64,000 bases of DNA from Arthrobacter sp. 35W (GCF_000482545.1 NZ_KI519455.1:682001-746000), one strand, 5' to 3'. Counted from the stretch's first letter, positions 34,275 to 57,963 are shown. Numbers and translations: made by a program. The notes: generated by a model not told the origin, from the letters alone.

Positions 34275-35546
34275 TCAACCGAACAGTGGATCCAAGGTGG
34301 TTGCCACCTCGGTCCGGGCCACCATTCTGCCGCCCTTGAACACGATGCGTGCCGGGGCGCCCGCGGCCACGGCCTCTTCCAGGGAGGATGCACGGATGGC
34401 CATCAGGTCCGCCGGGAATCCGGGCGCCATGCGCACCTCGGGCAGGCCCATCGCCGTACGCGCGTGCGTGGATACGCACTCATAGGCGGTCCCCACCAGC
34501 AGGTGCCCGGCAGACACCAGCAAGGAGGCGGTTTCCATGGCGTCAATGCGCCCCATGGGGTTGAACGGGTCCCGCCAGTTGTCCCCGCCCGCGGCCACCG
34601 TGGCACCGGCGGACAGCAGGTCCTCCACCGCCGTCAGGCCGCGCGGCTTGCGGGTGGTGGTCTCGCGCCCCTGCAGGAAGAGGTTTGTCTGGGGAAGTGC
34701 GACGACGGAGATCCCAGCTTCTGCGATGAGCCGGGCCGTCTTGCGGGCCACCTCCGGCTCCTGCATGCCCAGGCTGACGCAGTGCGAGGCCGTCACCGGC
34801 CCGGCAAATCCGGAGGCCAGCACCCGTTCCGCGAGCTGCTGCAGGACAAAGGTGCCACCGTCCGTCGTCTCGTCAATGTGGACGTCGATGCCGCGGCCGT
34901 GATCGGCCGCCATGGCGAACAGTTCCGCAAGAGACGCCGTCGGGTCATCCTCCAGGGACGGGACGCCGCCCACCAGATCTGCACCAAGCGCCAGACTTTC
35001 GGCAAGGACGGCCCGGTTGGCCGCGCCGTCACGGCCGCCCACACCGCCGGCGAGCGCCACAATTTGAAGGTCAGCCAGGCCCGCCAACCGTCCGCGGAGT
35101 TCCACCAGGGCCCGCACCCCGGCCGTGCCGATCTCCTCCCGGCAGTCGACATGGGTGCGGACGGCCGTGTATCCGTGGGCGAGGGCCTCCCCCAGCGCCT
35201 TGAGTCCGCGCCGGCCGATGTCATCCCCCGTCATGGAGGGGTAGGCCTCAATGATCGCCGTGATGGCGCCGGCTAGATCCCCCGTGGCGTTGGTGACGCG
35301 GCTGCCCAGCAGTGCCTTGTCCAGATGCGCATGCGGCTCCACCGGGGACGGCAGCAGGAGGTAGCCCGCCAGATCCAGCTCGACTGCCGACACGCCCGCA
35401 TCCGGACCTCCGGCAGCGTGGACACCGGCGCCGGCCAACGGAACAACCCGTTCAATGAGGCCATTCTTCAGATAAACATCCGCCGTGGCGCCATCGGAAA
35501 GGGCCGCCGAGCGTAGGACAAAGGTATTCTCAAAAACACTGGTCAT
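34275..35546 (-). CDS. Cytosine-deaminase-like amidohydrolase (CodA family)
   Basis: The 423-residue amidohydrolase keeps the metal and catalytic residues of the CodA group: HAHLD (HxH) near residue 72, HIDET near residue 219, SHC near residue 258, and GGDNWRDPFNPMG near residue 320. CodA-family enzymes deaminate cytosine, creatinine or related cyclic amidines. The substrate here is unknown, but a nitrogen heterocycle fits the neighbouring island. It is divergent from the SDR-E1 operon, with a GntR-type site in between. ATG 35546 is the only start close to the family N-terminus. Confidence 0.82.
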   Translation of the reverse strand: MTSVFENTFVLRSAALSDGATADVYLKNGLIERVVPLAGAGVHAAGGPDAGVSAVELDLAGYLLLPSPVEPHAHLDKALLGSRVTNATGDLAGAITAIIEAYPSMTGDDIGRRGLKALGEALAHGYTAVRTHVDCREEIGTAGVRALVELRGRLAGLADLQIVALAGGVGGRDGAANRAVLAESLALGADLVGGVPSLEDDPTASLAELFAMAADHGRGIDVHIDETTDGGTFVLQQLAERVLASGFAGPVTASHCVSLGMQEPEVARKTARLIAEAGISVVALPQTNLFLQGRETTTRKPRGLTAVEDLLSAGATVAAGGDNWRDPFNPMGRIDAMETASLLVSAGHLLVGTAYECVSTHARTAMGLPEVRMAPGFPADLMAIRASSLEEAVAAGAPARIVFKGGRMVARTEVATTLDPLFG

Positions 35547-35569
35547 ACCACTACTGTAACTGGCATGAT

Positions 35570-35585
35570 GTAATACATGTCACAA
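35570..35585. promoter_or_regulatory. Candidate FadR-type GntR operator in the divergent promoter
   Basis: TGTAATACATGTCACA contains TGTA-A-TACA, the GT-N3-AC core seen in FadR-subfamily operators. The same 16-mer with one change (TGTAGTACATGTCACA) occurs upstream of the ABC transporter ATPase at 50363. It sits between the CodA-like and SDR genes, 33 bp before the SDR start. Confidence 0.55.
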
Positions 35586-35617
35586 GCAATGATGCATAAT
35601 TCCGAAGGGAGGTCCTC

Positions 35618-36343
35618 ATGAGGGGACTAGCCGATCGCCGTGTACTGATTACGGGAGCAGCAGGGGGAATCGGCGCGGCCATTGCGCGTCGATTGAGTGA
35701 AGAAGGGGCCATCGTCGCCCTCACCGATCTCACGGAGCCGGAATTGGGAATCAATGCCGGCTATGCGGGCAAGGCTGACATCTGCAGCTCGGCTGACCTG
35801 GCCAGGCTTGTGGGCGAAGTGAACGCCGCCATGGGCGGGATCGACGCCGTCGTCGCCGTCGCCGGCATCCAGGCCTCGGGCCCCACCCATGAACTGCCGG
35901 AGGAAACCTTCCGGAAGGTGCTGGACGTCAATGTGCTCGGGACGTTCCTGACCACCCAGGCGGTGATACCCCAGATGCTTGAGCAGGGCTCGGGCACCAT
36001 CCTGACGTTCGGCTCCACCGCGGCGGTGTGCGGCGCCCCGGAACTGGCCTCCTACGCCGCGGCCAAGGGCGCCATTCTGCAGTACACGCGGTCCATCGCC
36101 GTCGAGTACGCCGCCCGGGGCATCCGGGCGAACTGCATCTGCCCGGGTGGAACCATGACGCCGCTGCTGCGCCAGCTGAACGCCGAGCGTTCGGCGCCGG
36201 ACCACTTTGCGGCCAAGCACCCCATCGGCCGCTACGCCGAGCCGGACGAGATTGCCGCGGCCGCCGCTTTTCTGATTTCCGATGATGCCTCATTCGTTTT
36301 GGGCTCGGCCATGATGGTCGACGGCGGGTTCTCCGCCTCCTAG
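35618..36343 (+). CDS. Short-chain dehydrogenase/reductase
   Basis: The 241-residue classical SDR has the cofactor motif TGAAGGIGAAIARRL near residue 12, the NAD-preferring acidic DLTEPE after beta-2, catalytic Ser in FGSTAAV, YAAAK (YxxxK), and the C-terminal VDGGFSAS. The alcohol or ketone substrate cannot be predicted. ATG 35618 follows GGGAGGT. It starts an operon with the E1 dehydrogenase subunits, 43 bp before E1alpha, so it may make or use the 2-oxo acid or alpha-hydroxy intermediate that complex oxidises. Confidence 0.9.
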   Translation: MRGLADRRVLITGAAGGIGAAIARRLSEEGAIVALTDLTEPELGINAGYAGKADICSSADLARLVGEVNAAMGGIDAVVAVAGIQASGPTHELPEETFRKVLDVNVLGTFLTTQAVIPQMLEQGSGTILTFGSTAAVCGAPELASYAAAKGAILQYTRSIAVEYAARGIRANCICPGGTMTPLLRQLNAERSAPDHFAAKHPIGRYAEPDEIAAAAAFLISDDASFVLGSAMMVDGGFSAS

Positions 36344-36386: not shown

Positions 36387-37412
36387 ATGACTGATGCTCT
36401 GACAAGGACAACTGCGCGGACAGCCGCCGGGATCACCCTGGAGGAGGGGCTTGAACTCCTCCGCAAAATGACGCTGATCCGCCGCTTTGAAGAACGTGCC
36501 GCACGGCTGCGGGCCGCCGGATTCATCCCCGGCTTCCTGCATCCCTGCAGCGGGCAGGAGGCCGTTGCCGTGGGCATCTCCGCCGCCCTGCGCAAGGACG
36601 ACGTCCTGACCTCCAACCACCGCGGCCACGGCCACCTGATGGGCCGCGGCGCCGATCCGGCCCAGATGTATGCGGAGCTGTTTGCCCGCTCCACCGGGTA
36701 CAACGCGGGCAAGGGCGGCTCCCTGCACATGATCGACGCCGATCTGGGCTTCCTCGGTGCCAACGGCATCGTGGGCGGCGGGATCCCCCTGGCCACGGGG
36801 GCGGCACTGCAGCTGAAGCGCCGCGGCAGCGAGGCCGTGGCGGTCACCTACTTTGGCGATGGAGCCTCCAACGAGGGAGCGTTCCACGAATCGTTGAACC
36901 TGGCGGCGCTGTGGAAGCTCCCGGTGCTCTTTGTCTGCGAGAACAACCTCTACGGCGAATTCACCCGCCAAAGCGAGCACATGGTGCTGGAGAACGTGGC
37001 CGACCGGGCCGCAGCCTACGGCCTGCCCGGCGTGGTGGTGGACGGCAACGACGTCCTGGCCGTGAAAAAGGTGGCCGAGGAGGCCACCGAGCGTGCCCGC
37101 AGCGGCATGGGCCCGACGTTGATCGAGGCAAAGACCTACCGGCACAAGGGCCACTTCGAAGGCGACATGGCCCGCTACCGCCCCAAGGAGGAGGTGGAGG
37201 CCTGGCTGAAACGTGATCCGCTGCTGCTCTTCCCCGAGGTCCTCCGGGAAGAACTGGGCGCCACCGATGCCGAGCTCGACGCCGTGCGGGAGTCCGTGGA
37301 GGCGCAGCTGGACCGCGACATCGAATGGGCCAAGGAGCAGCCGCACCCCACCCCGGAGGACGCGCTCCGCCACGTGTATGTCGATTCCCACAACGGAAAG
37401 GCCCTCCGATGA
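36387..37412 (+). CDS. Thiamine-dependent 2-oxoacid (acetoin-type) dehydrogenase E1 alpha subunit
   Basis: The 341-residue protein has the E1-alpha ThDP motif GDGASNEGAFHESLNLAALW near residue 155, then NLYGEFTRQ and the phosphorylation-loop-like KTYRHKGHFEGD. The pattern is that of AcoA/PdhA-type subunits, which with E1beta decarboxylate a 2-oxo acid or acetoin and pass the acyl group to lipoate. Its stop overlaps the E1beta start by 4 nt (ATGA). SD-like AGGAAGG precedes ATG 36387. Confidence 0.9.
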   Translation: MTDALTRTTARTAAGITLEEGLELLRKMTLIRRFEERAARLRAAGFIPGFLHPCSGQEAVAVGISAALRKDDVLTSNHRGHGHLMGRGADPAQMYAELFARSTGYNAGKGGSLHMIDADLGFLGANGIVGGGIPLATGAALQLKRRGSEAVAVTYFGDGASNEGAFHESLNLAALWKLPVLFVCENNLYGEFTRQSEHMVLENVADRAAAYGLPGVVVDGNDVLAVKKVAEEATERARSGMGPTLIEAKTYRHKGHFEGDMARYRPKEEVEAWLKRDPLLLFPEVLREELGATDAELDAVRESVEAQLDRDIEWAKEQPHPTPEDALRHVYVDSHNGKALR

Positions 37413-38419
37413 CCAACTTCACCTTTGCAGACGGCATCCGCCAGGCGATCGCCGAGGAAATGGACCGCGACCCGGCGGTCTTCGTGATCGGCGAGGACGT
37501 GGGCGAGTCCGGCGGCGTCTTCGGCGTCACGAAGGGCCTGTGGGACCGCTTTGGCCCGGACCGGCTCTGGGACTCCCCCATCAGCGAGGAGGCCATCGTC
37601 GGCGCCGCCGTCGGTGCCTCCCTGGTGGGTGGACGCCCGATTGCCGAGATCATGTTCAGCGATTTTTCGATGCTGGCCATGGACATGATCGTCAACCAGG
37701 CGGCCAAGACGCACTATATGACCGGCGGAAAGCTCAGCTCGCCGATGGTGGTGCGGATGATCACCGGCACCAACGGATCCACCGGCGCCCAGCACTCGCA
37801 GAGCCTGGAATCCTGGTTCACGCACGTGCCGGGCCTGAAGGTGGTGGCACCATCCACCCCGGAGGATGCCAAGGGGCTGCTGAAGAGCGCCATCCGCGAC
37901 CCCGACCCGGTGATGTTCTTCGAACACAAGGGCCTGTACACCGGCCGCGGCGGCCCGGCCGGCGACGTCGTCGAGGTTGACCCGATTCCCTTCGGCGTGG
38001 GCCGGATCCACCGCGCGGGCACGGATGTCACGGTGGTCTCCTATCTGAAGACGCGCGAGTATGCCCTTGCCGCGGCCGAAACACTGGCCGAGGAGGGCAT
38101 CTCCTGCGAGGTCTTCGACCCACGGACCCTGGTGCCCTTCGACTACGAGGGGCTGCGGGCATCGCTGGAGAAGACGGGCCGGCTGCTGATCGCCCACGAG
38201 GCGCCCGCCCGCGGTGGCTTCGGGGCCGAGATCGCCGCCTGGGCCGCCGAGAACTGCCACGATGTGCTGCGCTCCCCCGTGATGCGGGTGGGCGGCCACA
38301 ACACACCGATTCCCTACGCTCCCGTCATGGAGCAGTTTGTCCTGCCCATGACGGAGCGGATCACCGATTCGATCCGCGCGCTCGTTCAGAACCCGTCCCG
38401 TCAGCTGCAGTCACTCTAA
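37409..38419 (+). CDS. Thiamine-dependent dehydrogenase E1 beta subunit
   Basis: The 336-residue protein has the E1-beta landmarks: FVIGEDVGESGGVFGVTKG, DSPISEEAIVGAAVG (catalytic Glu region), HSQSLESWFTHVPGLKVV, and EVFDPRTLVPFD followed by HEAPARGGFGAEIAA. It pairs with E1alpha in an alpha2beta2 enzyme. ATG 37409 overlaps the E1alpha stop; an earlier in-frame start would lie inside E1alpha. It is followed after 12 bp by a small lipoyl carrier gene. Confidence 0.92.
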   Translation: MTNFTFADGIRQAIAEEMDRDPAVFVIGEDVGESGGVFGVTKGLWDRFGPDRLWDSPISEEAIVGAAVGASLVGGRPIAEIMFSDFSMLAMDMIVNQAAKTHYMTGGKLSSPMVVRMITGTNGSTGAQHSQSLESWFTHVPGLKVVAPSTPEDAKGLLKSAIRDPDPVMFFEHKGLYTGRGGPAGDVVEVDPIPFGVGRIHRAGTDVTVVSYLKTREYALAAAETLAEEGISCEVFDPRTLVPFDYEGLRASLEKTGRLLIAHEAPARGGFGAEIAAWAAENCHDVLRSPVMRVGGHNTPIPYAPVMEQFVLPMTERITDSIRALVQNPSRQLQSL

Positions 38420-38431
38420 GGAGGAAAAGAT

Positions 38432-38704
38432 ATGGCAACCGAATACCCGCTGCCCAAATGGGGAGTCACCATGGAATCAGGAACCGTCGCGGAGTGGAAT
38501 GTCAGCGTGGGCGACCTCGTCACCGAGGGCCAGGTGCTGGCGAGCATCGACACCGACAAGATCACCGTTGAGCTGGAGGCGCCCGTGCCGGGCGTCGTCG
38601 CCGCTCTGCTGGCAGGTGAGGGCGACGACGTCGAGGTTGGCGCGTCGATCATCACCATTGCGGCAGATCAACAGGACTACGATAGCTATCGAGCAAATCT
38701 GTAG
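38432..38704 (+). CDS. Stand-alone lipoyl-carrier domain protein
   Basis: The 90-residue protein is one lipoyl domain, with the attachment Lys in IDTDKITVE near residue 46 and typical PLPKWGVTMESGTV at its start. No E3-binding segment or acyltransferase domain follows; the frame simply ends. In most operons of this kind the lipoyl domain is the N-terminus of E2. The intact reading frame and AAGGAGG site 11 bp upstream suggest a genuine small carrier, not a frameshifted E2. The E2 partner must be elsewhere or another acceptor is used. Confidence 0.88.
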   Translation: MATEYPLPKWGVTMESGTVAEWNVSVGDLVTEGQVLASIDTDKITVELEAPVPGVVAALLAGEGDDVEVGASIITIAADQQDYDSYRANL

Positions 38705-38820
38705 CCCAGTCGGCATTGGACCATGCGGCGCACCCACTGGGTTGGACTTCTTCGCAGCACGTGTTCGACACAGGCGTAACAGCGGTTATCGCTCGTCAAT
38801 TGCACAGATTGGAATTAGTC

Positions 38821-39570
38821 ATGAATGAAAAGGGAGCGGTCGAAACCGAGTCCTCATTCGTAGCAGTGGCACGGATCAGTCCCACCCAACAGGTAAGGGA
38901 TCAACTCCTGGCCGCGATTCGTCGGAATGAGTTTCCGCCCGGGACGCTCCTTCCCTCGGAACGGAAACTCTGCGAAGCGTTTGGTGTGAGCCGCGTCAGC
39001 ATCCGCGAGGCGCTGGCCGGGCTGGAGGCCACAGGTCTCATTGAAATCCAGCACGGCAAGGGTGCGCTGGTCCGGCAGGGCATCACCGGTGCCTATGCCG
39101 GCCCCTTCGGGCTGTATCTGGAAATGCACCGCGATGAGCTCAGCGAACTGCTGCGCGTTCGTGGGGCGTTGGACGGGTTGGCAGCCGAAATGGCGGCAAA
39201 CGACGGCGGAGAAGACGCTCTGGCCCTCATCCGAAACGCGCATGATTCGTTCTCGGATGCGGCCAAGGACAACGCCGATCCGGCCGAGCTTGCGGTGCTG
39301 GATGTGGCGTTCCACCGGGCCATTGCCCTAGCCGGCGGCGGAAGCCTGCTGCCGGACCTGCTGGCGGATCTGAACGGCGTACTCACCGAGTCCCGGGACA
39401 TCCTGTTCTCCCAGGAGGGGCAGCTGCCTATCTCGGTGGCCGGCCACCAGCTGATCCTTGACGCCATCCTGGCCCACGACGGCGCCGCGGCGCATGAAGC
39501 GGCCGTGGACCATGTGATGGGCATGCTCAAGTGGGTTGATGGTTTCCGCAGCGCGGGGATCACTGCCTAG
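38821..39570 (+). CDS. FadR-subfamily GntR transcriptional regulator
   Basis: The 249-residue protein has an N-terminal GntR winged helix (about 17-85, with PSERKLCEAFGVSRVSIREAL) and a C-terminal FCD ligand-binding domain (about 95-240, including FHRAIALAGG, and AVDHVMGML with its His). FCD-type regulators sense organic acids or acyl-CoAs and control catabolic genes. It closes the SDR-E1 operon and is the likely reader of the TGTARTACATGTCACA sites at 35570 and 50363. ATG 38821 lacks a strong ribosome-binding site; no better start is apparent. Confidence 0.88.
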   Translation: MNEKGAVETESSFVAVARISPTQQVRDQLLAAIRRNEFPPGTLLPSERKLCEAFGVSRVSIREALAGLEATGLIEIQHGKGALVRQGITGAYAGPFGLYLEMHRDELSELLRVRGALDGLAAEMAANDGGEDALALIRNAHDSFSDAAKDNADPAELAVLDVAFHRAIALAGGGSLLPDLLADLNGVLTESRDILFSQEGQLPISVAGHQLILDAILAHDGAAAHEAAVDHVMGMLKWVDGFRSAGITA

Positions 39571-39582
39571 GGGCTCGAACAC

Positions 39583-39619
39583 AGATGAGGGGCCCGTCCA
39601 GTGGACGGGCCCCTCATCT
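39583..39619 (+). terminator. Hairpin terminator after the GntR gene
   Basis: An 18-bp perfect stem (AGATGAGGGGCCCGTCCA and complement) with a very short loop is followed by TTGGTTGT. It ends the SDR-E1-GntR operon. Confidence 0.88.
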
Positions 39620-39663
39620 TGGTTGTGGCATCATTTGGTCCGGCACCTACAGGATGGAAACTC

Positions 39664-40017
39664 ATGGATGACTCGCTATTGGCCCCCTCGGAACTTCCAC
39701 CGGAATTTACGTACCCTCCGGAGTTCCTGCGGGTGGTGGAACAGGGGCTGCTCGAACTGGAGCCCTGGTGGGTGTTGACCGGGGACATGCTTCGGGGAAC
39801 CCATGCGGGCTTGGCCAAGCGCTACCCGGCTCGCCGGCTCATTCCCATCGCAAAGCGCCAGGACAATGACGATGTCGCGTGCTGGGACTTGGCCACGGGC
39901 CAAGTGTCCATCGTGCACGACTTCGCATCACCCGGCTGGGGGGCCCGCAGCCCGGGGTTTCAGGATTTCAGGGCCTGGTTCCATAGCGCTGTCGACGACA
40001 TGCTGGACCACTGGTGA
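39664..40017 (+). CDS. SUKH/SMI1-KNR4-like protein
   Basis: The 117-residue soluble protein has a pattern like SUKH-superfamily proteins: FTYPPEFLRVVEQGL near the start, RLIPIAKRQDNDDVACWDL mid-protein, and FQDFRAWFHSAVDDML at the C-terminus. SUKH proteins are often immunity factors for secreted nuclease or ADP-ribosylating toxins, but many have no known partner. Its stop overlaps the GTG start of kptA (GTGA). ATG 39664 follows a weak AGGATGG site. Confidence 0.6.
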   Translation: MDDSLLAPSELPPEFTYPPEFLRVVEQGLLELEPWWVLTGDMLRGTHAGLAKRYPARRLIPIAKRQDNDDVACWDLATGQVSIVHDFASPGWGARSPGFQDFRAWFHSAVDDMLDHW

Positions 40018-40589
40018 GGGAGCGCCGCTACGACCTCAACAGGCTGAGCAAGGTGGTCTCCCATGCCCTGCGCCACCAGCCATGGCTCTACGGGTTGGAG
40101 ATTGACGAACACGGATGGACGAAAGTCGACGACCTGCTGACCGCGCTGCGGAGGGAGTCCCCCGATTGGGCAGATGTGGAACTTTCCGACCTTGACGCGA
40201 TGATCGCGGCATCCGCCAAACCTCGCCATGAAATCCGCGGCGTGAGGATACGTGCAATGCACGGCCACAGCCTTCCTGGCCACATCCGCATGGACCCAGC
40301 GGAACCACCGCCCGAGCTGTTCCACGGAACGTCATCCCAGAGCCTCCCCTCAATCCTGGCCGAAGGGCTCCGCCCTCAAGAGCGGCAATACGTTCATCTG
40401 TCGGCGGACATTGCAATGGCAAGGATGGTTGGCAGCCGAAAACCTGGCACGACGGTGGTCCTGAGGATTGACTCGAGGTCTGCATTCCTTACCGGCGTTG
40501 CCTTTCACAGAACCCACGGGCTTGTGTGGCTCGCGGACAAGATCCCCGCGCAGGTCATCCGCGTCCTCGACGACCCTGGGCGCACCTGA
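40014..40589 (+). CDS. kptA: RNA 2'-phosphotransferase (KptA/Tpt1 family)
   Basis: The 191-residue protein keeps both KptA lobes. The N-terminal winged-helix lobe has RLSKVVSHALRHQPWLYGLE and DEHGWTKVDDLL. The ADP-ribosyltransferase-like lobe has ELFHGTSSQSLPSILAEGL, VHLSADIAMA and VVLRIDSRSA. Conserved Arg and His residues (LRH, FHGT, HLS) are present. Tpt1/KptA removes an RNA 2'-phosphate using NAD+; the bacterial role is unclear, since bacteria lack the tRNA-splicing pathway that needs it in yeast. GTG 40014 overlaps the SUKH-like stop. Confidence 0.93.
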   Translation: MRERRYDLNRLSKVVSHALRHQPWLYGLEIDEHGWTKVDDLLTALRRESPDWADVELSDLDAMIAASAKPRHEIRGVRIRAMHGHSLPGHIRMDPAEPPPELFHGTSSQSLPSILAEGLRPQERQYVHLSADIAMARMVGSRKPGTTVVLRIDSRSAFLTGVAFHRTHGLVWLADKIPAQVIRVLDDPGRT

Positions 40590-40591: not shown

Positions 40592-40965
40592 TTAGGGAAT
40601 TCGAGGATTCAACTCCGCAGCCACCGCCGCGAAGGAATTGTAGTCCATCTCGAGATAGCGACTCGAATCCACAAAAAACGTCCCTCTTGCGAATGACTCA
40701 ACAAGTGTTGAGACCATGGCGCCTATCGATGCAAACTCGACAGCATGCTCTTCTTCATCAATCCGAAAATGCCAGATTGTTCCAAATTCACCTTGGTTGA
40801 GGTCGATGACGTAAAAATCGCCCCCACAGTTGGCAAACAATGGGAACCAAACCGGCACCCACCGGGAATCCGCGAGGAATGCGCGGTAGTTGGCCACTGC
40901 GTCATCAACTGACAGCAGGTAGAAACCCGGAAATATGTGAATATCGTCTAGCCCGAGGGTTTCAT
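40592..40965 (-). pseudogene. SUKH/SMI1-KNR4-like gene, 5' end lost at an IS remnant
   Basis: The readable frame gives IHIFPGFYLLSVDDAV, then RWVPVWFPLFANCGGDFYVIDL and FGTIWHFRIDEEEHAVEFASIG. This is the middle and C-terminal part of an SMI1/KNR4 protein. Upstream the similarity stops near 40965 and the frame meets a stop next to IS1380-like sequence, so the start and about the first 40-60 codons are missing. It is convergent with kptA, whose stop is 2 bp away. An internal ATG at 40897 could still initiate a 101-residue product. Confidence 0.65.
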
Positions 40966-40984: not shown

Positions 40985-41240
40985 TGTGTTTAAGAGCTGA
41001 AAGGGCGCTCTGAGCTGGAAAAATAGTGGTTGTCGAGACCGTTATTCCACCGAGCTAAGGAGCACCCTTTCGGTGTTTATGGCTACCCCTGTTTTCCCGT
41101 CCGTTCCTGTTGCCACGACCGGCCAGTCGCTGCTCTCCCAGGCCGGCCTGAACGTGGTGACGTCGTTCGTCGACGCGCTCGGTTTCCGGGACTTGTGTGA
41201 GGACCGTCTGGGCCAGTTCGTCCCGGCCGCCTTCGTCTCG
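40985..41240 (+). mobile_element. IS1380-family remnant: left end and first part of transposase
   Basis: A non-coding leader with an AAGGAG site (41056-41061) precedes ATG 41079. The protein starts ATPVFPSVPV and continues AGLNVVTSFVDALGFRDLCEDRLGQFVP, the N-terminus of IS1380-type transposases. After ~52 codons the similarity stops and the frame closes at 41282 with unrelated sequence. The rest of the transposase and the right end are absent. Boundaries are approximate. 41241-41335 shows no gene that I can support; minus-strand MNLLPPLDQVPSDSGVILMH there may be the start of another interrupted gene. Confidence 0.65.
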
Positions 41241-41335
41241 CTCAGGTGCATGAGAATGACGCCTGAATCCGATGGCACTTGATCCAGCGGAGGCAGAAGA
41301 TTCATTGGACCAATGATGCCACACACTCTTTCCTG

Positions 41336-47749: not shown

Positions 47750-47815
47750 GGCATTCCCTTTGCTGCAGGTGGAGAGGAATAAGGTTGCGTCCGACTGCAC
47801 TGTCGGATCGCGCCG

Positions 47816-48999: not shown

Positions 49000-49284
49000 G
49001 GAATTAGCCCCTTTGCTACTCGATGAATCAGGCGCGAATTATCGACTATTGCGGGCACTTCTTTGTTGCCGCAAAAGTCCTTGACTTCGCTGTTGAATGG
49101 ATCCAGCATTGACCTCAGGTGCAACATATCACACGTCATGCCAGTTCGGAAGAGTTGTAATTCCATCCCGGCTTTCGGCACCAACCAGGGACCTGCGGCA
49201 TTCACATGTGGCTGCCGCACCTTCTTGCCTACACACTGTCCGGTGTCGACAGCCTCGACCCATATGGATTGCAAAGGACCCGCA

Positions 49285-50259: not shown

Positions 50260-50362
50260 CCGGCAATGCCCTGGCGCCCCGGAGGGCTCCCGCGTCACAT
50301 CCGGAGCGCAGAGACGCCGGGGGCGCTGGGGTATTGACATCACCACCAAACACCACCAGCCT

Positions 50363-50378
50363 TGTAGTACATGTCACA
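50363..50378. promoter_or_regulatory. Candidate FadR-type GntR operator upstream of the ABC transporter
   Basis: TGTAGTACATGTCACA differs by one base from the site at 35570 in front of the SDR-E1 operon. It lies 125 bp upstream of the ATPase gene, where no other coding feature occurs. Confidence 0.55.
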
Positions 50379-51249: not shown

Positions 51250-52106
51250 CCATCCAGATCGCCAAACCAGCATCCAAGGCCGCCACTGACGCCAGCACCA
51301 AGGCTGTGGCTGGCAAGTCCAAACCGTTTCTGAAGGCTGCCCTGCCGCCGGCAATCGTGCTGGTGGTCTTCCTGGCCGCCTGGTCGATTGTCTCCAGCAC
51401 CGTCTACGGCGACCGCAACTACCTGCTGCCCCGCCCGGAGCAGGTGCTGCAGGCCATCTTGGACAACCCCGACACCCTCTGGCAGGGCATCCGGATCACC
51501 TTCTTCGAGGCCACCGCCGGATTCGTCCTGGCCATCGTCGTCGGTTTTGCCGGCGCCATCATCATGAGCCAGTCCAAGATGCTCGAACGCAGCCTCTACC
51601 CCTACGCGGTGCTCCTCCAGACCGTTCCGGTGGTGGCTGTTGCGCCGATCATTGTGCTCTGGTTCGGCTACAACCAGAGCGCCGTCATCGTCATCGCGTT
51701 CATGATCGCCGTCTTCCCGATCCTGAACAACACCCTGCTGGGCCTGCTGTCCACGGACCGGAACCACAGGGATCTGTTCCGGATGCACCACGCCAGCCGG
51801 ACCACCGAGTTCCTCCAGCTCCGGCTCCCCAGTGCGCTGCCGAACATCTTCGCCGGCCTGCGCGTATCGGCCGGTCTGGCCGTGGTGGGAGCCATCGTGG
51901 GCGAGTTCATCATCGGCAGCGGCGGCGAAGAAGGCGGCCTGGGCGTCAAGGTGCTTTTTGCCCAGTCACGTCTGGCCACCGGCCTCCTCTTCGCCGAAGT
52001 TCTGGCAGCAACGCTGCTGGGCTTCATCTTCTTTCTGGTCGTGACGATCGTGGGGAACCGTCTGATCAAGCATTGGCACGAATCAGCATTGAAGGACGAT
52101 GCCTAG
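51246..52106 (+). CDS. ABC transporter permease (SsuC/TauC type)
   Basis: The 286-residue protein has about six membrane helices. The BPD_transp_1 EAA-loop region is RMHHASRTTEFLQLRLPSALPNIFAGLRVS, split by the coupling-helix Gly-like position. Preceding segments include TFFEATAGFVLAIVVGFAGAIIM. It forms the channel for the ATPase at 50503 and the two lipoproteins. ATG 51246 overlaps the ATPase stop (ATGA). SBP copy 2 follows 81 bp later. Confidence 0.92.
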   Translation: MTIQIAKPASKAATDASTKAVAGKSKPFLKAALPPAIVLVVFLAAWSIVSSTVYGDRNYLLPRPEQVLQAILDNPDTLWQGIRITFFEATAGFVLAIVVGFAGAIIMSQSKMLERSLYPYAVLLQTVPVVAVAPIIVLWFGYNQSAVIVIAFMIAVFPILNNTLLGLLSTDRNHRDLFRMHHASRTTEFLQLRLPSALPNIFAGLRVSAGLAVVGAIVGEFIIGSGGEEGGLGVKVLFAQSRLATGLLFAEVLAATLLGFIFFLVVTIVGNRLIKHWHESALKDDA

Positions 52107-52187: not shown

Positions 52188-53165
52188 ATGAAGCTCAAGC
52201 ACCTCGCCACCGCCGTCGCCTCCGCGGCCGTCATTGCTCTTGGCGCCACGGCCTGCGGCAGCGCCGCCGCCACCGGCCCCTCGGCTGCCAACCCCCAGAC
52301 GGCCACCATCCTGATGAACTGGTTCGCCCAGGCCGAGCAGGGCGGGTACTGGGACGCCATGCAAAACCAGACAGTGAAGGACTCGGGCGTGACCCTGAAG
52401 GTCCAGCAGGGCGGACCCGGCATCCAGACCATCGCGCAGGTGGCCGCCGGCCAGTCGGACTTCGGCATCGCCAATGCCGACGATGTGATGGTGGCCCGCA
52501 AGAACGGCCTGCCGATCGTGGCCGTGGCAGCGGCCTACGACACCAACCTGCAGTGCATCATGTCGCACAAAGCCATTGGTGCCACCAGCTTCGAGGCGCT
52601 GAACGGCCACCAGATTTCCCGTGTCCCGAGCCCCTACTTCGACTACCTCAAGTCCCATTTCAAGTTGGACAACATCGAAGAGATCAACTACACCGGATCG
52701 CTGGCGGACTTCAAGCGCAACGACAACCTGGCCCTGCAGTGCTACGTCACCTCCGATGTCTACAACGCCGAGAAGGAAGGCATCGACATCAACGTCCTGA
52801 ACATCGCCAAGGATGGCGGCTACAACCCGTACGGCCTGCTGCTCTTCACCACCGACAAGCTGGTCAAGGAAAAGCCGGAGCTGGTGAAGTCCGTCGTCAA
52901 GGCCTCGGTGGCCGGATGGAAGAGCTTCCAGGCCGATCCCACCGCCGCCAAGACGGCTGTGATGGCGGCCAACAAGGACGCCGATTCGGCCACTTTTGAC
53001 GCCGCGGTCAAGACCATCAAGGACGGCAACTACCTCGGCGCCTCCATCGGCTCGATGACCGAGGAGCGCTGGAACACCCTGCGCGACCAGCTGGCCTCCA
53101 TAGGCCAGGTTCCTGCCGGCTTCGACGCCAAGACCGCCTACACCAACGATTTCCTGCCCAAATAG
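52188..53165 (+). CDS. NMT1/SsuA-type ABC transporter substrate-binding lipoprotein, copy 2
   Basis: The 325-residue paralogue of the protein at 49285 has the same layout: lipobox GATACGS, LMNWFAQAEQGGYWDAMQNQ, GGPGIQTIAQVAAGQSDFGI and DFKRNDNLALQCYVTSDVY. Most aligned residues agree by eye, with substitutions scattered across the ligand cleft. Duplication around the transporter genes may widen the range of substrates taken up. ATG 52188 follows GAAAGGCACC. A GC-rich hairpin separates it from the ALDH gene. Confidence 0.9.
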   Translation: MKLKHLATAVASAAVIALGATACGSAAATGPSAANPQTATILMNWFAQAEQGGYWDAMQNQTVKDSGVTLKVQQGGPGIQTIAQVAAGQSDFGIANADDVMVARKNGLPIVAVAAAYDTNLQCIMSHKAIGATSFEALNGHQISRVPSPYFDYLKSHFKLDNIEEINYTGSLADFKRNDNLALQCYVTSDVYNAEKEGIDINVLNIAKDGGYNPYGLLLFTTDKLVKEKPELVKSVVKASVAGWKSFQADPTAAKTAVMAANKDADSATFDAAVKTIKDGNYLGASIGSMTEERWNTLRDQLASIGQVPAGFDAKTAYTNDFLPK

Positions 53166-53252: not shown

Positions 53253-54737
53253 ATGACTGCAACATTCGCCCCCCGCGGCTCTTGGACCCCCGTGGCCTTT
53301 GACTCCACGCTCCAGCCGTTCCTGTCCGCCAGCGCAGATGCTCTGGCCACCTTCGACCCCGCCACCGGTGGACTTGTCGCCCGCGTGGCCACGTCCACGC
53401 TCGGGCAGGTCGATGAGGCCGTCGACAGCGCAGAGCGCGCCTTCCGCAAGTCCAGTTGGCGCAACGACGGCGCGCTGCGCGCCCGCGTGCTGTTCCGCTG
53501 GGCCGAAAGGATGCGCCAGCAGACCGAGCAGCTGGCGGAGCTGCTGACCCGCGAACAGGGCAAGACCCTTGGCCAGGCCCGCGGCGAGGTACTCAGCAGC
53601 ATCAGCATGATCGAGTTCAACGCCGGCCAGGCCCGGGCCATCTACGGCCGCTCCGCCGCGTTGAAGGACGGCGTCCATGGAGTGGTTCTGCGCGAGCCGG
53701 TGGGCATCGTTGCCGCCATCACGCCGTGGAACTACCCCCTCAACCTCACCATCCGGGCCGTGGCTCCGGCCCTGGCGGCGGGCAACGCCGTTATCGTCAA
53801 GCCGGCCAGCCTGACGCCGGCGATCGTCATCGCAGCCCTGGCCCTGCTGGCCCAGGACGACGATCTGCCGGACGGCATCGTCCGTGCGGTGGTCGGCTCC
53901 GGCGCAACCGTCGGCGACCGTCTGGTGACCCACGACGGCGTCAACATGATCGCGTTCACCGGCGATTCCGCCACGGGCATCAACGTCATGAAGCGTGGCG
54001 CGGACAGCCTGAAAAAGGTCTCGCTGGAGTTGGGCGGAAAGTCGCCCAACATCGTCTTTGCCGATGCCAATCTGGACAAGGCACTCATTGGCGCCGAGAA
54101 CGCCATCTTCTCCTCCGCCGGCCAGATCTGCACGGCCGGCAGCCGGCTGTTGCTGGAGGAAAGCATCCACGATGAATTCGTCGAGCGCCTGGCCGCACGG
54201 GCACGCGGGATGCATGTGGGGGACGGCCTCGACCCCGCCACGCAGATGGGGCCGCTGGTCTCCGCCGGCCACAAGCAGACAGTGTGGGACTACGTCGAAG
54301 TTGCCAATGCCGAAGGCACGGTGGTGGCCGGCGGCCGGGCGCTGGAGGGCGGACCCTACGATGACGGGCATTTCGTGGCGCCCACGATTGTCACAGACCT
54401 GCCCGCCGGCTCGCGCCTGCTCAAGGAGGAGGTCTTCGGCCCCGTCCTGGCCGTGCAGAAGTTCGGCACCGAGGAGGAGGCCATCCAGATCGCCAACGGC
54501 ACGGAATTCGGGCTGGCCTGCGGGCTCTGGACCTCCGACCTCGACCGCTCCTGGCGCGTGGGCCGCGCCGTCGACGCGGGCACCATCTGGATCAACACCT
54601 ACCACCACTTCTACGGCGAAATGGAGGTGGGCGGGTTCAAGAAATCCGGCATCGGCCGCCAGCAGGGCATTGAGGGACTGCTGGAATTCACCGAGACCAA
54701 GCACCTGAACTTCGATTCGAACCCGACGTTCTGGTAG
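53253..54737 (+). CDS. NAD(P)-dependent aldehyde dehydrogenase
   Basis: The 494-residue ALDH has GIVAAITPWNYPLNLTIRAV, the NAD site IAFTGDSATG, catalytic Glu in LELGGKSPNIVF and catalytic Cys in SSAGQICTAGSRLLL. The length and motifs match broad ALDH-superfamily enzymes of the betaine/vanillin/semialdehyde group. It would oxidise an aldehyde intermediate of the island. ATG 53253 follows CGAAAGCGG. It is the last gene of the transporter operon, closed by a hairpin. Confidence 0.93.
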   Translation: MTATFAPRGSWTPVAFDSTLQPFLSASADALATFDPATGGLVARVATSTLGQVDEAVDSAERAFRKSSWRNDGALRARVLFRWAERMRQQTEQLAELLTREQGKTLGQARGEVLSSISMIEFNAGQARAIYGRSAALKDGVHGVVLREPVGIVAAITPWNYPLNLTIRAVAPALAAGNAVIVKPASLTPAIVIAALALLAQDDDLPDGIVRAVVGSGATVGDRLVTHDGVNMIAFTGDSATGINVMKRGADSLKKVSLELGGKSPNIVFADANLDKALIGAENAIFSSAGQICTAGSRLLLEESIHDEFVERLAARARGMHVGDGLDPATQMGPLVSAGHKQTVWDYVEVANAEGTVVAGGRALEGGPYDDGHFVAPTIVTDLPAGSRLLKEEVFGPVLAVQKFGTEEEAIQIANGTEFGLACGLWTSDLDRSWRVGRAVDAGTIWINTYHHFYGEMEVGGFKKSGIGRQQGIEGLLEFTETKHLNFDSNPTFW

Positions 54738-54810: not shown

Positions 54811-55275
54811 TTAGGCGCCCCAGGTGACCAGTTCCAGGATGGTCCCCCAGGGGGCGCGGACAAAGGCGTTACTCAGTCCCGGCGTCGCCCCCTCGGTGAA
54901 GGTGACGGGTTCCCCCATCACCACCACACCGGGCATCTGGCGCAGGGCCGCCAGGGTGGCGTGGATGTCCGGGGTCTGGAGGGCAAGGTGGCTGGCTCCG
55001 ACATCCATGGCGGCCGGCTGCCCAGTCTTGGACTCCCCACTCCACCACTGCAGCAATTCCAGCCTGGCACCGGCAACGTCAATCATCACCGCTTCGAACT
55101 CGGCCGTCTGGTTGGCGCCGATCCGCTGCATTGAGCCGCCCTCGGGGTCGCGGATGCGGTCCAGGCGGAAAACCACCGTGGCACCGAACGCCTCCACAAA
55201 GAACGCCACCGCCTCCTCCAGGTCCGGCACGCACAGGCCCACATGGTCCAGCCGCACGGCCGGGGCGGCGCTCAC
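54811..55275 (-). CDS. VOC-family protein (glyoxalase/methylmalonyl-CoA epimerase-like)
   Basis: The 154-residue protein has two beta-alpha-beta-beta-beta repeats. The first starts LDHVGLCVPDLEEAVAFFVEAFGA; ASHLALQTPDIHATLAAL begins the second; GTILELV near the end supplies the metal-binding Glu. The metal His and Glu positions (DHVGL, SHLAL, and Glu in TILEL) are kept. Substrate is unknown. Its start overlaps the M24 stop by 4 nt, so the two genes form an operon transcribed from the GntR-type site at 56426. Confidence 0.85.
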   Translation of the reverse strand: MSAAPAVRLDHVGLCVPDLEEAVAFFVEAFGATVVFRLDRIRDPEGGSMQRIGANQTAEFEAVMIDVAGARLELLQWWSGESKTGQPAAMDVGASHLALQTPDIHATLAALRQMPGVVVMGEPVTFTEGATPGLSNAFVRAPWGTILELVTWGA

Positions 55276-56390
55276 GCTTCGATCCGGAAGAGGCTGTCCG
55301 TGTCCGTCACATCTGAGAGCAGCCGGGCACCGGAGTCTTCGACGGCGATCATGTCCTTGATCTGCATGCCAAACCCGAAACCGCTGCGGTAGACCAGCGG
55401 TTCCATGCCCAGCACCATGCCGGCCTCGACCTTTTCGTTCGAGTACGGCCCAAAGTACGGGGCCTCGTGGAGGTTGGTGCCGATCGAGTGGGCCACGAAG
55501 GAGATGGCGGGCAGCCCCAGCTCATCGAACGTGGATCTGAACAGCTCGTAGACCTCCCGCGAGCTGGCACCCGGGCGGATCGCCTCGAAGACCTGGTGCT
55601 TGCAGTCGACAAGGTTTTGGTAGACCCGCTCCGCTTCGGCAGGCGGATCCCCGACCACCGCGGTGCGGCAGACGCCGGCCTGGTAGCCGTCAATGACGGA
55701 GAAGATCTCCACCCGGCAGACGTCCCCGGGCAGCAGGATGCGGTTGGTGGGGCCGACATTGGGCAGCTGGCTGCGCTCCCCCGTAGCCACGATCATCAGC
55801 TTGAACTGCTGGGCACCCTGCTCATAGACACTGCGGGTCAGTGCCGCGGCAATGTCCATCTCGGTGGATCCGGCCCGCACGGCCTCAAACGAGGTCTTGA
55901 TGGCCGTGTCGGAGATCCGAGACAAGCGCTCCAGCAGCGCGAGCTCGTCCGGCGTCTTGACCTGCCGTGCGCTCGTCAACAGCGCATCGGCCGCGACAAA
56001 TTCCAAGCCGGGAACCAGGGCGGCGATTTCGGCGTGGTCGGCAAAAGAGAGATAGGAGAGTTCAGTGCCCACACGCGCCGATTCCAGACCCCAATCCTTG
56101 AGCAATCCGGCCAGAACCACCATGGGGCGCTCGACGAATTCCTTCCAGACGCGGATCTCCGCGTCCACTTCGGCCCGGCGCACGGTGGTCTCTTCCATGT
56201 CGATGCAGACAATCGCACTGCGGCCGTCCCCGTGCAGGACGGTTGCCGCATGGCGCCACCGCATCAGCGGTTGTGAGGGGATGACATAGCCGGCGGTGTA
56301 CGCCACGTTTTCCGGGGAAAGACACACCAACGCGTCCAAACCCTTTTCTGCCATCATGGACCGTAACCGGTTTCCAACGTCCTGCTGCAT
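55272..56390 (-). CDS. M24 pita-bread fold hydrolase, creatinase-like, metal ligands not conserved
   Basis: The 372-residue protein has an N-terminal creatinase domain (about 5-130) and a C-terminal pita-bread domain. In metal-dependent M24 peptidases the ligands are Asp, Asp, His, Glu, Glu. Here the first Asp region reads VEIFSVIDGY, the second GYQAGVCRT (no Asp), the His is kept in FVAHSIG, the first Glu in GMVLGMEP, and the last Glu region reads QIKDMIAV. Creatinase is the known metal-free member of this fold. Hydrolysis of a small C-N bond is therefore likelier than proline peptidase activity. ATG 56390 starts the family N-terminus. Confidence 0.8.
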   Translation of the reverse strand: MQQDVGNRLRSMMAEKGLDALVCLSPENVAYTAGYVIPSQPLMRWRHAATVLHGDGRSAIVCIDMEETTVRRAEVDAEIRVWKEFVERPMVVLAGLLKDWGLESARVGTELSYLSFADHAEIAALVPGLEFVAADALLTSARQVKTPDELALLERLSRISDTAIKTSFEAVRAGSTEMDIAAALTRSVYEQGAQQFKLMIVATGERSQLPNVGPTNRILLPGDVCRVEIFSVIDGYQAGVCRTAVVGDPPAEAERVYQNLVDCKHQVFEAIRPGASSREVYELFRSTFDELGLPAISFVAHSIGTNLHEAPYFGPYSNEKVEAGMVLGMEPLVYRSGFGFGMQIKDMIAVEDSGARLLSDVTDTDSLFRIEA

Positions 56391-56417
56391 GATTTCTCCT
56401 AGTCTGAAAAGCGGCAC

Positions 56418-56446
56418 TTACAAACTGGTCTTACAACAGATATCCT
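56418..56446 (+). promoter_or_regulatory. Promoter and GntR-type operator between divergent M24 and amidohydrolase genes
   Basis: On the plus strand, TTACAA (56418-56423) and TATCCT (56441-56446) are 17 bp apart. The spacer holds CTGGTCTTACAACAG with TGGTCTTACAA (56426-56436), a GT-N3-AC core like PdhR/FadR-group operators. The amidohydrolase start is 60 bp downstream. Confidence 0.5.
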
Positions 56447-56505
56447 ATAAGCATTGCAGTTCTGAGGCGAGTACAAATCCGAAGACCACAAGGTGAGGAA
56501 AACTG

Positions 56506-57963
56506 TTGAACCATCATTTGGGCCGCGAAACCGCCGCAACCACACTTATTGAAAATCTTCAGTTCATTGTCACGGCGAACCAGAACGACGACGTCGTTCG
56601 CAACGCCGCGATTCTGATCAGGGACGGCAAGATTGCCGACATCGGCCCCACCTGGGAGGTCCGCGCGAGGCTGGGCGGCGCCGTCGTGGACAAGACCATT
56701 GACGGCTCGATGCTCGGCATGACGCCGGGGTTCATCGATTCCCATGTGCACCTGTCCGAAACACTGAGCCGCGCCGTTTTTCCCGATGTCCTGGCCACCC
56801 GGGCCTGGGTGTTCCACTGGGCGAAGCCCTTCTATGCCCACGTGGACGAGGACGACGAGCGCACCAGCGTGCTGCTGGGCACCGCCGAGATGCTGCGCAG
56901 CGGCACCACCTGCTTCCTGGACATGGGCGCCCAGAACGACGCCGGCCTGACCGCCAGGGCCGCCGCCCAGATCGGCATCCGCGGCATTGTTGGCCGCCAC
57001 GCCGCGGACATCCGCCCCACGGAGATCCCGGCTGGCTGGTCCGATGACATGATGGACCACCACTTCTTCAAGAACTCCGCCACTGCTCTGGACGCATTGA
57101 AGAGCAGCGTTGAGGAATGGAATGGCTACGCCGACGGGCGGATCCGCTGCTGGGTCAACATTGAGGGCAAGGAGCCCTGCAGCCTGGATCTGACCATCGG
57201 TGCGCGCGAACTGGCGGCCGAGCTGGGTGTGGGAACCACGTACCACATCGCCACCAGCATGGAGGAGGCCCAGGTCAGCCAGAAGCGGCACGGCATGTGG
57301 CCGATCAGCCGCATCGCTCGCAACGGCGGGCTCGGCTCCAACCTCGTGCTGGCGCACGCCGTCGCCGTCGCCGATGAGGAGGTCAAGATGCTGGCGGACC
57401 ACCAAACCTCGGTAGCCTTCTGCCCGTCGAGCTCGCTCAAGCTGGCCAAGGGTGCCGCCGACATCGGCAAGTACCCGGAAATGATCGCGGCCGGCGTCAC
57501 GGTGGGGTTGGGGACCGACGGCGTGTCCGCCGCCGGCAACCTCAACCTCCACCGGCAGATCCACATCGTAGCGGGCCTGTTCAAGGACGCCCGCCGGGAC
57601 CCCACACTGGTGGGCGCGCGCCAGGCCATCCGGATGGCCACCATCGACGGTGCCAAAGCCCTCGGCTGGGACGACGAGATCGGCTCGCTGGAGGTCGGCA
57701 AGCAGGCGGACCTGGTGCTCTTCGATCTGAACCACCATGAGTGGACGCCCTACGCCGATCCCGAGCAGGCGCTGGTGTACTCGGCGAGCACGGCCAGCAT
57801 CTCCCAGACCTGGGTGGCCGGAAAGGCCGTCTTCAAGGAGGGCCGCGTGACGGCAATCGATGAGACGGCGCTGCGCTCAGAGGCCCGCGAACGTGCTGCC
57901 CGGATCGTCCTGCGCGCCGGGCTGGGAATCCACGTCCCCGTGACCACCACCTTGTACGACTAA
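56506..57963 (+). CDS. TrzN/AtzB/SsnA-type metal-dependent amidohydrolase
   Basis: The 485-residue amidohydrolase keeps the mononuclear-metal residues: GFIDSHVHLSE (HxH), TTYHIATSMEEAQ (His and Glu), VLAHAV, and LGTDGVSAAGN (Asp). This is the chlorohydrolase/deaminase subgroup that includes TrzN, AtzB and guanine deaminase. It would remove an amino or other leaving group from an aromatic or cyclic nitrogen compound. TTG 56506 follows AGGTGAGG. The gene ends 5 bp before palindrome B4. Confidence 0.87.
   Translation: MNHHLGRETAATTLIENLQFIVTANQNDDVVRNAAILIRDGKIADIGPTWEVRARLGGAVVDKTIDGSMLGMTPGFIDSHVHLSETLSRAVFPDVLATRAWVFHWAKPFYAHVDEDDERTSVLLGTAEMLRSGTTCFLDMGAQNDAGLTARAAAQIGIRGIVGRHAADIRPTEIPAGWSDDMMDHHFFKNSATALDALKSSVEEWNGYADGRIRCWVNIEGKEPCSLDLTIGARELAAELGVGTTYHIATSMEEAQVSQKRHGMWPISRIARNGGLGSNLVLAHAVAVADEEVKMLADHQTSVAFCPSSSLKLAKGAADIGKYPEMIAAGVTVGLGTDGVSAAGNLNLHRQIHIVAGLFKDARRDPTLVGARQAIRMATIDGAKALGWDDEIGSLEVGKQADLVLFDLNHHEWTPYADPEQALVYSASTASISQTWVAGKAVFKEGRVTAIDETALRSEARERAARIVLRAGLGIHVPVTTTLYD

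Follow-up and report, generated by a model that had tools for sequence, protein, structure and literature searches.

A conserved gene block on a genomic island of Arthrobacter sp. 35W may encode a modular route for the catabolism of a nucleobase-like nitrogen heterocycle

Creatinine is broken down by way of N-methylhydantoin and N-carbamoylsarcosine to sarcosine, and the hydantoinase of that route is ATP-dependent and belongs to a family other than that of the hydantoinase-like enzyme described here. Creatinine deaminases occur in the cytosine-deaminase-like family. The clostridial purine route runs through a xanthine amidohydrolase and the hydrolysis of a ureidoimidazole to glycine. Members of the DpaA family act on a 2,6-dicarboxylated N-ring, and creatinase and the ectoine hydrolase EutD are not known to have the full metal site of the M24 fold. 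Relatives of enzymes from these systems lie together in a block of some two dozen genes at positions 34275-57963 of a 64-kb stretch of DNA from Arthrobacter sp. 35W (NZ_KI519455.1:682001-746000), which we call the window. An earlier note, made from the sequence alone, had read this block as an island for the catabolism of a nitrogen-containing compound. Co-occurrence of the genes in other genomes and an empty site in six congeners indicate that these genes form a single conserved system, catabolic in appearance, that lies on an island. With middling confidence, we propose that it is a modular catabolic system for a nucleobase-like N-heterocycle that would carry a carboxylate beside a ring nitrogen. 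The earlier note knew of no named pathway with this gene set, and our targeted literature searches likewise returned no description of it among the matches listed.

Genes were called from GC content by codon position, and the window proteins were assigned to families by Pfam and NCBIfam scans. At the center of the block is a nine-gene operon on the minus strand (41336-48999). It encodes a 4-oxalocrotonate-tautomerase-type protein with Pro at position 2 (48805-48999; PF01361, E 7e-19), an isochorismatase-fold amidase fused to a VOC domain (47816-48808; PF00857 and PF00903), an MR/MLE enolase-superfamily enzyme (46595-47800; PF13378/PF02746), an opine dehydrogenase, ODH, resembling N-(1-carboxyethyl)norvaline dehydrogenase, CENDH (45519-46598; PF02317, E 1e-35; PDB 1bg6, 163 bits), a DpaA-like protein (44571-45470; PF16924; PDB 2rir, 108 bits), a hydantoinase/allantoinase-like cyclic amidohydrolase, HYD (43214-44620; TIGR02033, 299 of 393 bits), an AP_endonuc_2 TIM barrel resembling hydroxypyruvate isomerase and OtnI (42375-43217; PF01261; TIGR03234, 117 of 353 bits), a short-chain dehydrogenase, SDR2 (41638-42405; PF13561), and a YCII-family protein (41336-41641; PF03795, E 2e-14) whose apparent CTG start overlaps the SDR2 stop. 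Divergent from the tautomerase gene, on the plus strand, are genes for an NMT1-type importer made up of binding protein 1 (49063-50259; PF09084), an ABC ATPase (50503-51249; PF00005), a permease (51222-52106; PF00528) and binding protein 2 (52188-53165; PF09084). An aldehyde dehydrogenase, ALDH, of the betaine/aminoaldehyde type follows (53253-54737, plus strand; PF00171; TIGR01804, 455 of 669 bits), then a free-standing second VOC protein (54811-55275, minus; PF00903), an M24-fold protein with a creatinase N-domain (55272-56417, minus; PF00557, E 1e-37, and PF01321) and an ATZ/TRZ-type amidohydrolase, ATZ (56506-57963, plus; PF01979, 185 bits). At the other end lie a cytosine-deaminase/AtzC-like amidohydrolase, AH3 (34275-35546, minus; PF07969 Amidohydro_3), and, on the plus strand, a butanediol-dehydrogenase-like SDR1 (35618-36343; PF13561; NCBIfam scores under the cut-offs among the matches listed), the E1 alpha (36387-37412; PF00676) and E1 beta (37325-38419; PF02779/PF02780) subunits of a 2-oxoacid/acetoin dehydrogenase type, a stand-alone lipoyl domain protein of 90 aa (38432-38704; PF00364) and a GntR/FCD regulator (38716-39570; PF00392 and PF07729). 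Each enzyme class named in the earlier note has Pfam or NCBIfam support where it had been placed; the tautomerase, the YCII protein and the GntR/FCD regulator also belong to the block and had gone unnamed.

Among the matches listed for the 20 proteins scanned, NCBIfam cut-offs were passed only by GguA (861 bits, cut-off 810) and by E1 beta, which matched a subfamily model (350 bits, cut-off 321). Scores below the cut-off were obtained with the models for dihydropyrimidinase (299 of 393 bits), muconate cycloisomerase (TIGR02534, 227 of 335), RutB (TIGR03614, 96 of 378), cytosine deaminase (247 of 403) and, for the DpaA-like protein, DpsA (196 of 261). ATZ matched 8-oxoguanine and guanine deaminase models, the latter far under its cut-off (120 of 375 bits). 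Because nearly all of these scores stay under the cut-offs, functions are assigned at the family level only. A DpaB-like partner was not noticed next to the DpaA-like gene, although no search directed at DpaB was made.

The earlier note had named a lack of co-occurrence in other genomes as what would speak against it, and the gene set withstood this check. Scanning GTDB contigs, we found 88 relatives and kept 80 loci (L-numbers denote relatives' loci), with orthology set by fixed identity thresholds; 47 had full flanks of at least 20 kb. All nine core genes were present in 31 of the 47 full-flank loci and at least seven in 39. The 31 complete loci comprise 25 from Pseudomonadota, three from Actinomycetota, one from a Bacteroidota bin and two that are unplaced, and core gene order and strand are rearranged between loci of the three phyla. 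The single full-flank locus from Verrucomicrobiota has six of the nine. Among the 80 loci (and, in brackets, the 47 with full flanks) we found the opine dehydrogenase in 68 (43), the tautomerase in 70 (46), VOC in 70 (46), the enolase in 63 (45), the hydantoinase in 62 (40), the isochorismatase domain in 55 (40), ATZ in 49 (38) and M24 in 46 (35). Many loci are metagenome bins, and these counts are not independent events since they include close kin, such as several from Aminobacter, Shinella and Bradyrhizobium and a pair, L111 and L112, with identical DpaA. None of the nine core genes occurred in 58 other loci, which form a weak control given their size (264,424 bases; mean about 4.6 kb). The co-occurrence exceeds chance. 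A gene set kept in Actinomycetota, in Pseudomonadota and in a bin from Bacteroidota should serve a widely available compound.

Protein identities between the window and the Aminobacter locus L037 are 66% for the hydantoinase, 64% for ATZ, 55% each for the DpaA-like protein and the opine dehydrogenase, 53% for M24, and 44% each for the enolase and the isochorismatase-VOC fusion. Other members of the block are less widespread: ALDH is found in 12/80 loci, SDR2 in 11/80, SDR1 in 5/80, AH3 copies at least 50% identical in 5/80 and a second VOC protein at least 45% identical in 3/80, and the YCII gene was also found in L045 and L057. The E1 alpha/E1 beta/lipoyl set that the earlier note counted with the island is present (36387-38704), but it occurs in 6/80 loci and is an accessory of some lineages. 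Homologues of the GntR-type regulator are in 48/80 loci. A plasmid tblastn search returned 18 records, 14 from Aminobacter, Shinella and Phyllobacterium at 54-56% identity and four at 29-32%. Nine of ten plasmid regions viewed hold the full cluster, and the tenth, on Aminobacter aminovorans pAA03 (L146), which is conjugative by PLSDB typing, is an interrupted copy in which the amidohydrolase gene occupying the place of ATZ is shortened. This copy is bracketed by two Tni-type gene sets (10137-13492 and 28444-31799) with identical protein accessions, and the same strain has a second, full copy on pAA01. The bracketing Tni genes and the conjugative plasmid fit the observed spread of the cluster, and horizontal sharing is part of our proposal for the block.

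In the Arthrobacter genome (4.66 Mb), the insert relative to six congeners spans about 29.6 kb (28481-58060), with homology stopping near 28480 and restarting near 58060. In the six congeners, genes matching 26918-28456 and 58058-58852 are separated by only 0.2-7.2 kb, so that the insert is absent from the empty site of relatives, as is expected of a genomic island. The DpaA-like gene was found in its own genome only among 58 relatives including 22 congeners (E<=1e-30), as was the hydantoinase among 394 members of the class (E<=1e-120). No direct repeats were obvious at the island edges, where the longest common word is a 10-mer. In a DpaA tree, the window protein joins those of the Microbacteriaceae loci L048 and L043 (SH-aLRT 93, quick search). 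The insert also contains a sugar ABC/ROK block (28757-34161) whose ATPase occurs in 9/21 congeners, lying more than 0.8 Mb from the insertion-site marker in four and on a different contig in five, and is absent from the six empty-site congeners at E<=1e-200. We left this block out of the pathway since it is carried elsewhere by congeners and we noticed no counterpart in the clusters of the relatives. An ECF transporter beside ATZ was considered as a clue to vitamin uptake and set aside; it is of the PF09819 cobalt type and belongs to the chromosomal flank common to the six congeners.

Operator-like palindromes are shared by separate promoters of the block. Two of them, TGGTCATACCA and ATGTAATACAT(GTCACA), lie in the divergent promoter of the deaminase and E1 genes (35540-35584, plus strand), TTGTAGTACATGTCACA lies upstream of the ABC ATPase gene (50362-50378, plus) and TGGTCTTACAA lies in the M24/ATZ promoter (56426-56436, plus). 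The candidate forms of a GntR site are TGTANTACA and TKGTNNTACMA. The word TGTANTACATGTCACA occurs exactly at 35569 and 50363, with 0.23 occurrences expected in the window at up to three mismatches, and two were reached by 2/100 shuffles. The sites at 35540 and 56426 match TKGTNNTACMA (0.23 expected; 1/100 shuffles reach that). Allowing one mismatch, WTGTANTACAW has four window sites against 0.24 expected, two of which (7967 and 40638) are away from pathway promoters; because the motif was discovered by inspecting the same regions, these window figures are optimistic. In 20 actinobacterial relatives (352,670 bases), this palindrome is matched exactly four times, compared with a mean of 0.05 in 20 shuffles (maximum 1); all four matches are at the NCS1 permease starts of four Actinomadura loci and within 45 bp of the called start, and these represent one lineage. 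With one mismatch there are 12 sites in total against a shuffle mean of 4.25 (maximum 8); three of the eight inexact sites are in the M24/ATZ promoter of L043, L048 and L065 and others are within genes. No palindrome was seen in the divergent region between the tautomerase and binding-protein genes; a scan of the divergent region for promoters found nothing. A looser motif, CTGGTNNNACMA, with one mismatch (28 against 19 expected) was matched by 4/100 shuffles and was dropped for the stricter palindromes. The shared palindromes are a candidate operator motif.

The hydantoinase and the isochorismatase domain travel together. In the 47 full-flank loci both are present in 39, neither in six and each alone in one; in all 80 loci the figures are 53 with both, 16 with neither, nine with the hydantoinase alone (several of these on short contigs) and two with the isochorismatase domain alone. 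The VOC half of the fusion stands alone in 12 of 14 loci inspected gene by gene. The amidohydrolase and isochorismatase classes noted earlier are present, with the qualification that two of their members, the hydantoinase and the isochorismatase domain, together make up a ureide module that is separable.

Metal or catalytic residues are kept in the three amidohydrolases, the isochorismatase domain and the VOC domain. AH3 retains H72, H74, H223, E226, H255 and D322 (loose 45-row alignment), ATZ retains H80, H82, H247, H284 and D338, and the binuclear site of HYD (H74, H76, K160, H199, H255, D327), whose nearest PDB entry is the L-hydantoinase 1gkr, is conserved in at least 97% of 66 rows with the window counted twice. 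The Asp-Lys-Cys triad of the isochorismatase domain (D18, K118, C151) and the His-His-Glu metal site of the fused VOC domain (H218, H278, E324) are invariant in 15 aligned rows. The nearest PDB entry to the isochorismatase domain is the ureidoacrylate amidohydrolase RutB, followed by an N-carbamoylsarcosine-amidase-related protein. The enolase conserves K186, K188, D216, E243, D266 and K293, which we take to be its functional residues. In the tautomerase, P2 and R12 are present and conserved in at least 97% of 77 rows, and H40 and W51 occupy the positions of Arg39 and Phe50 of 4-oxalocrotonate tautomerase, for which, numbered without Met, we assume Pro1 and Arg11 as catalytic residues along with Arg39 and Phe50. 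H195 and D296 of ODH align with H202 and D297 of its nearest PDB entry, 1bg6, presumably the catalytic pair. The creatinase-like protein of the earlier note does have an M24 fold and a creatinase N-domain, but its metal site is degraded. Compared with the five-ligand D-D-H-E-E set of 5giu, it has E237 for D, G248 for D and K354 for E and keeps H310 and E339, so that two of the five ligand positions are lost and a third has Glu for Asp. G248 and K354 occur in 17/19 aligned rows, and L053 (6445-7572) and L054 (6580-7722) retain D/D/E. Foldseek with the predicted model gave the best E-values to Xaa-Pro peptidases, with creatinase and EutD slightly lower; the fold does not settle what the protein does.

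Based on these results, we propose the following order of steps. The NMT1 system would import the substrate, and SDR1, the E1 alpha/beta and lipoyl proteins and ALDH, in lineages that have them, would trim its side chain to a carboxylate. AH3, ATZ or both would then hydrolytically deaminate an amidine or guanidine carbon to give a cyclic ureide, which the hydantoinase-like enzyme would open and the isochorismatase domain would decarbamoylate, releasing NH3 and CO2. The DpaA-like, VOC, tautomerase and enolase proteins and the metal-less M24 hydrolase would reduce, isomerize and open the remaining N-heterocycle, leaving a secondary amine between two carboxylated carbons, that is, an opine. Cleavage by the opine dehydrogenase would turn this into an amino acid plus a 2-oxo acid, and glyoxylate, glycine or both are probably among the products. 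The lipoyl protein has no acyltransferase domain, so that transfer to CoA by the E1-lipoyl set is hypothetical; the oxidation to an acyl carrier put forward in the earlier note is likewise a conjecture. Genes for C2 outlets are found nearby: malate synthase G in 6/80 loci, DadA in 10/80, a hydroxypyruvate-isomerase-like gene in 12/80 (actinobacteria) and bhcC/bhcD of the beta-hydroxyaspartate cycle beside the pAA03 copy; a glyoxylate carboligase is encoded elsewhere in the Arthrobacter genome. L062 has a split thiamine pyrophosphate (TPP) enzyme and an ornithine-cyclodeaminase-like gene, and the TPP halves recur in L063, L090 and L068. The predicted outlets are of two kinds, one for a C2 unit and one for a 2-oxo acid, and the second kind is represented by E1-lipoyl here and by the TPP enzyme of L062 and related loci. 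An NCS1 nucleobase permease gene inside four Actinomadura clusters (Pfam-tested in L047, with similar genes in L046, L049 and L052) suggests nucleobase-type import. CobW GTPase genes (37/80 loci) and RidA genes (25/80) are other recurrent neighbors.

Our leading candidate for the substrate, put forward tentatively, is a pteridine, for instance pterin-6-carboxylate; on this bolder reading the block would be the missing bacterial route for complete breakdown of folate- and biopterin-derived pteridines. SDR1, the E1-lipoyl set and ALDH would yield pterin-6-carboxylate, ATZ or AH3 would deaminate it, the hydantoinase would open the pyrimidinedione ring and the isochorismatase domain would remove the carbamoyl group. 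This would leave aminopyrazine-2,6-dicarboxylate, an aza-dipicolinate with a ring nitrogen between two carboxylated carbons. Such an intermediate would account for the relative of DpaA and, once it had been reduced and its ring opened, for the opine dehydrogenase, and it would give glyoxylate or glycine. Among the compounds we considered, only a pteridine would derive both enzymes from one intermediate. In the variant of the core with a molybdenum hydroxylase, described below, pyridine or pyrazine carboxylates would be the source of the corresponding hydroxylated ring. If the substrate is indeed a pteridine, this would close a gap stated in PMC9513972 (2022), in which whether and how bacteria decompose pterins past deamination is left open.

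Several observations weigh against the general proposal of a modular system for a nucleobase-like N-heterocycle, or parts of it. AH3 is only 33% identical to the 'cytosine deaminase' of Aminobacter L037, and all nine core genes occur in 3/12 full-flank actinomycetotal loci, of which 10/12 have at least seven. Malate synthase and DadA are limited to Rhizobiales-type loci and bhc to one of ten plasmid regions; because the outlet genes are so restricted, the argument for glyoxylate draws on few independent events. NMT1 proteins bind varied ligands. ATZ is kept without the hydantoinase or isochorismatase domain in L056, L120 and L121, and the Opitutales loci L055 and L066 have the whole isochorismatase-VOC fusion with no hydantoinase nearby, which means that ATZ does not have to supply the ureide module. 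In the 16 loci with neither ureide gene, ODH passed our thresholds in six and M24 in seven (several contigs are short), and ODH is present in three of the six such loci with full flanks, which makes us less sure of it as a fixed core member than 68/80 suggests and slightly lowers our confidence in the proposal. Core genes beside molybdenum-hydroxylase and tricarboxylate-type transporter genes could mean an aromatic N-heterocycle without any ureide. This leads to an alternative that we regard as rather unlikely, in which the core degrades an N-heteroaromatic mono- or dicarboxylate (for example dipicolinate, after a molybdenum hydroxylase) and the ureide module of the window is an add-on that arrives at this hydroxylated ring from a precursor with an amino substituent and a fused ureide. 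We surveyed neighbors as BLAST families, with seven Aminobacter-type hydantoinase loci excluded and Pfam applied to examples (L075, L085, L097, L101, L115). Molybdenum-hydroxylase subunit homologues were found in 9/16 loci without the hydantoinase and isochorismatase domain against 5/55 surveyed loci with the hydantoinase, and TctC-like genes in 11/16 against 3/55. The core proteins of L097 are 67-90% identical to those of Aminobacter, and the ring type of the DpaA family also agrees with this alternative. Set against it, our searches found no dipicolinate-degradation gene cluster in the literature among the matches listed, and there is no molybdenum hydroxylase among the window genes scanned with Pfam.

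The separability of the ureide module also bears on a creatinine-type route for a cyclic guanidine or hydantoin, with an N-carboxyalkylated, opine-like hydantoin as substrate. AH3 would deaminate a creatinine-like imidazolinone, the hydantoinase would open an N-alkyl hydantoin, the isochorismatase domain would act as an N-carbamoylsarcosine-type amidase and a D-amino-acid-oxidase-type (DAO-type) dehydrogenase would release glycine or glyoxylate. The cytosine-deaminase-like AH3, the closeness of HYD to 1gkr, matches of the isochorismatase domain to the N-carbamoylsarcosine amidases 3eef and 1nba, creatinase among the relatives of M24, and DadA with malate synthase G in Aminobacter loci all agree with it. 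We consider it unlikely because it provides no work for the DpaA-like, tautomerase, VOC and enolase proteins, and the core partly exists without the hydantoinase and carbamoylase. The same kind of surplus makes a clostridial-type hydrolytic purine route (guanine-like deamination, xanthine amidohydrolase, ureidoimidazole hydrolysis and then glycine) highly improbable; it would use the 8-oxoguanine/guanine deaminase resemblance of ATZ, the NCS1 permease of the Actinomadura relatives and the glycine/glyoxylate outlets, but ATZ falls far short of the guanine deaminase cut-off and the opine dehydrogenase, DpaA, enolase, tautomerase and VOC proteins would go unused. Least probable of all, in our view, is a mosaic island whose operons are unrelated and serve no common pathway. 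The island does hold the genus-common sugar ABC/ROK block, KptA and an SMI1-like open reading frame (ORF), and E1 alpha/beta and ALDH occur in few relatives, but in three phyla the set of nine core genes reappears as a group, in rearranged orders and strands, and the operator-like palindromes are common to separate operons.

Between the GntR gene and the operon lie a KptA/Tpt1 RNA 2'-phosphotransferase gene (PF01885; 40014-40589) with a neighbor that has no family match (39601-40589 region), and an SMI1_KNR4-like minus-strand ORF (40592-40897; 22.7 bits, slightly below the 25.4 cut-off), which look like passenger cargo. A short ORF at 41073-41282 resembles, by eye, the start of an IS1380-type transposase and had no Pfam match. 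Among other genes in the relatives' clusters are a Rieske VanA-type gene in four loci (one member Pfam-tested) and a cytochrome P450 in L061, L064 (Pfam-tested), L065, L067, L069 and L073, of which five are gammaproteobacterial bins and L065 is actinobacterial. L095 has a RibD_C (pyrimidine reductase) gene at 14178-15068, with a similar gene in L070, a possible hint of pteridine or flavin chemistry. Extra opine-dehydrogenase and M24 paralogues (about 32-41% identity) are found near tricarboxylate transporter genes in L097 (17725-20867) and L114 (17693-20864). The 'resolvase' of the proteobacterial clusters, U227 (L037, 17231-17914), has homologues in 41/80 loci, no Pfam family and, by tblastn, no homologue in the window. 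Its model (pLDDT 89) has phytanoyl-CoA hydroxylase and CytC3 as best PDB matches at weak scores (E 1e-3 or worse, TM <0.4), a weak resemblance to phytanoyl-CoA-type Fe/2-oxoglutarate (2OG) oxygenases. The annotation looks doubtful. In Variovorax, L123 and L124 have cytosine-deaminase-like homologues beside, by eye, threonate/erythronate catabolism genes (an aldolase and an OtnI-like isomerase). Of interest in the cluster are a dozen enzymes whose active sites are intact or tellingly changed, the candidate operator motif, and the copies carried on plasmids.

Compared with described systems, the block shares with the creatinine route the order of its chemistry, from a cytosine-deaminase-type (CDA-type) deaminase through hydantoin opening to an isochorismatase-fold carbamoylase, but that route is not known to include a DpaA, an opine dehydrogenase, an enolase, a tautomerase or a VOC protein. 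Like the Rut pathway it has an isochorismatase-fold ureido amidase, comparable to RutB, and a RidA-family gene in Rhizobiales clusters; unlike it, the RutB model is matched far below its cut-off, a hydantoinase is present and no RutA-type monooxygenase was found among the window genes scanned. ODH has the fold of CENDH and its aligned His202/Asp297 pair, whereas it sits in a catabolic-looking cluster and its activity on N-carboxyalkyl amino acids is predicted. The DpaA-like protein has both domains of dipicolinate synthase subunit A and has relatives 54-56% identical that are annotated DpsA, yet it is only 29-31% identical to dpaA-annotated Bacillus and Cytobacillus proteins. The modeled M24 protein resembles the non-peptidases creatinase and EutD in fold (TM by query 0.78-0.87; 19-21% identity), but its fold is equally near to Xaa-Pro peptidases. 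None of ten Variovorax homologues could be identified as the published pterin deaminase, and no RidA-type gene was found in their short flanks. In the systems of PMC9513972, the pterin deaminase Arad3529 and folate degradation in Variovorax F1, a pterin is deaminated by an amidohydrolase, the step that ATZ or AH3 would perform here if the substrate is a pteridine.

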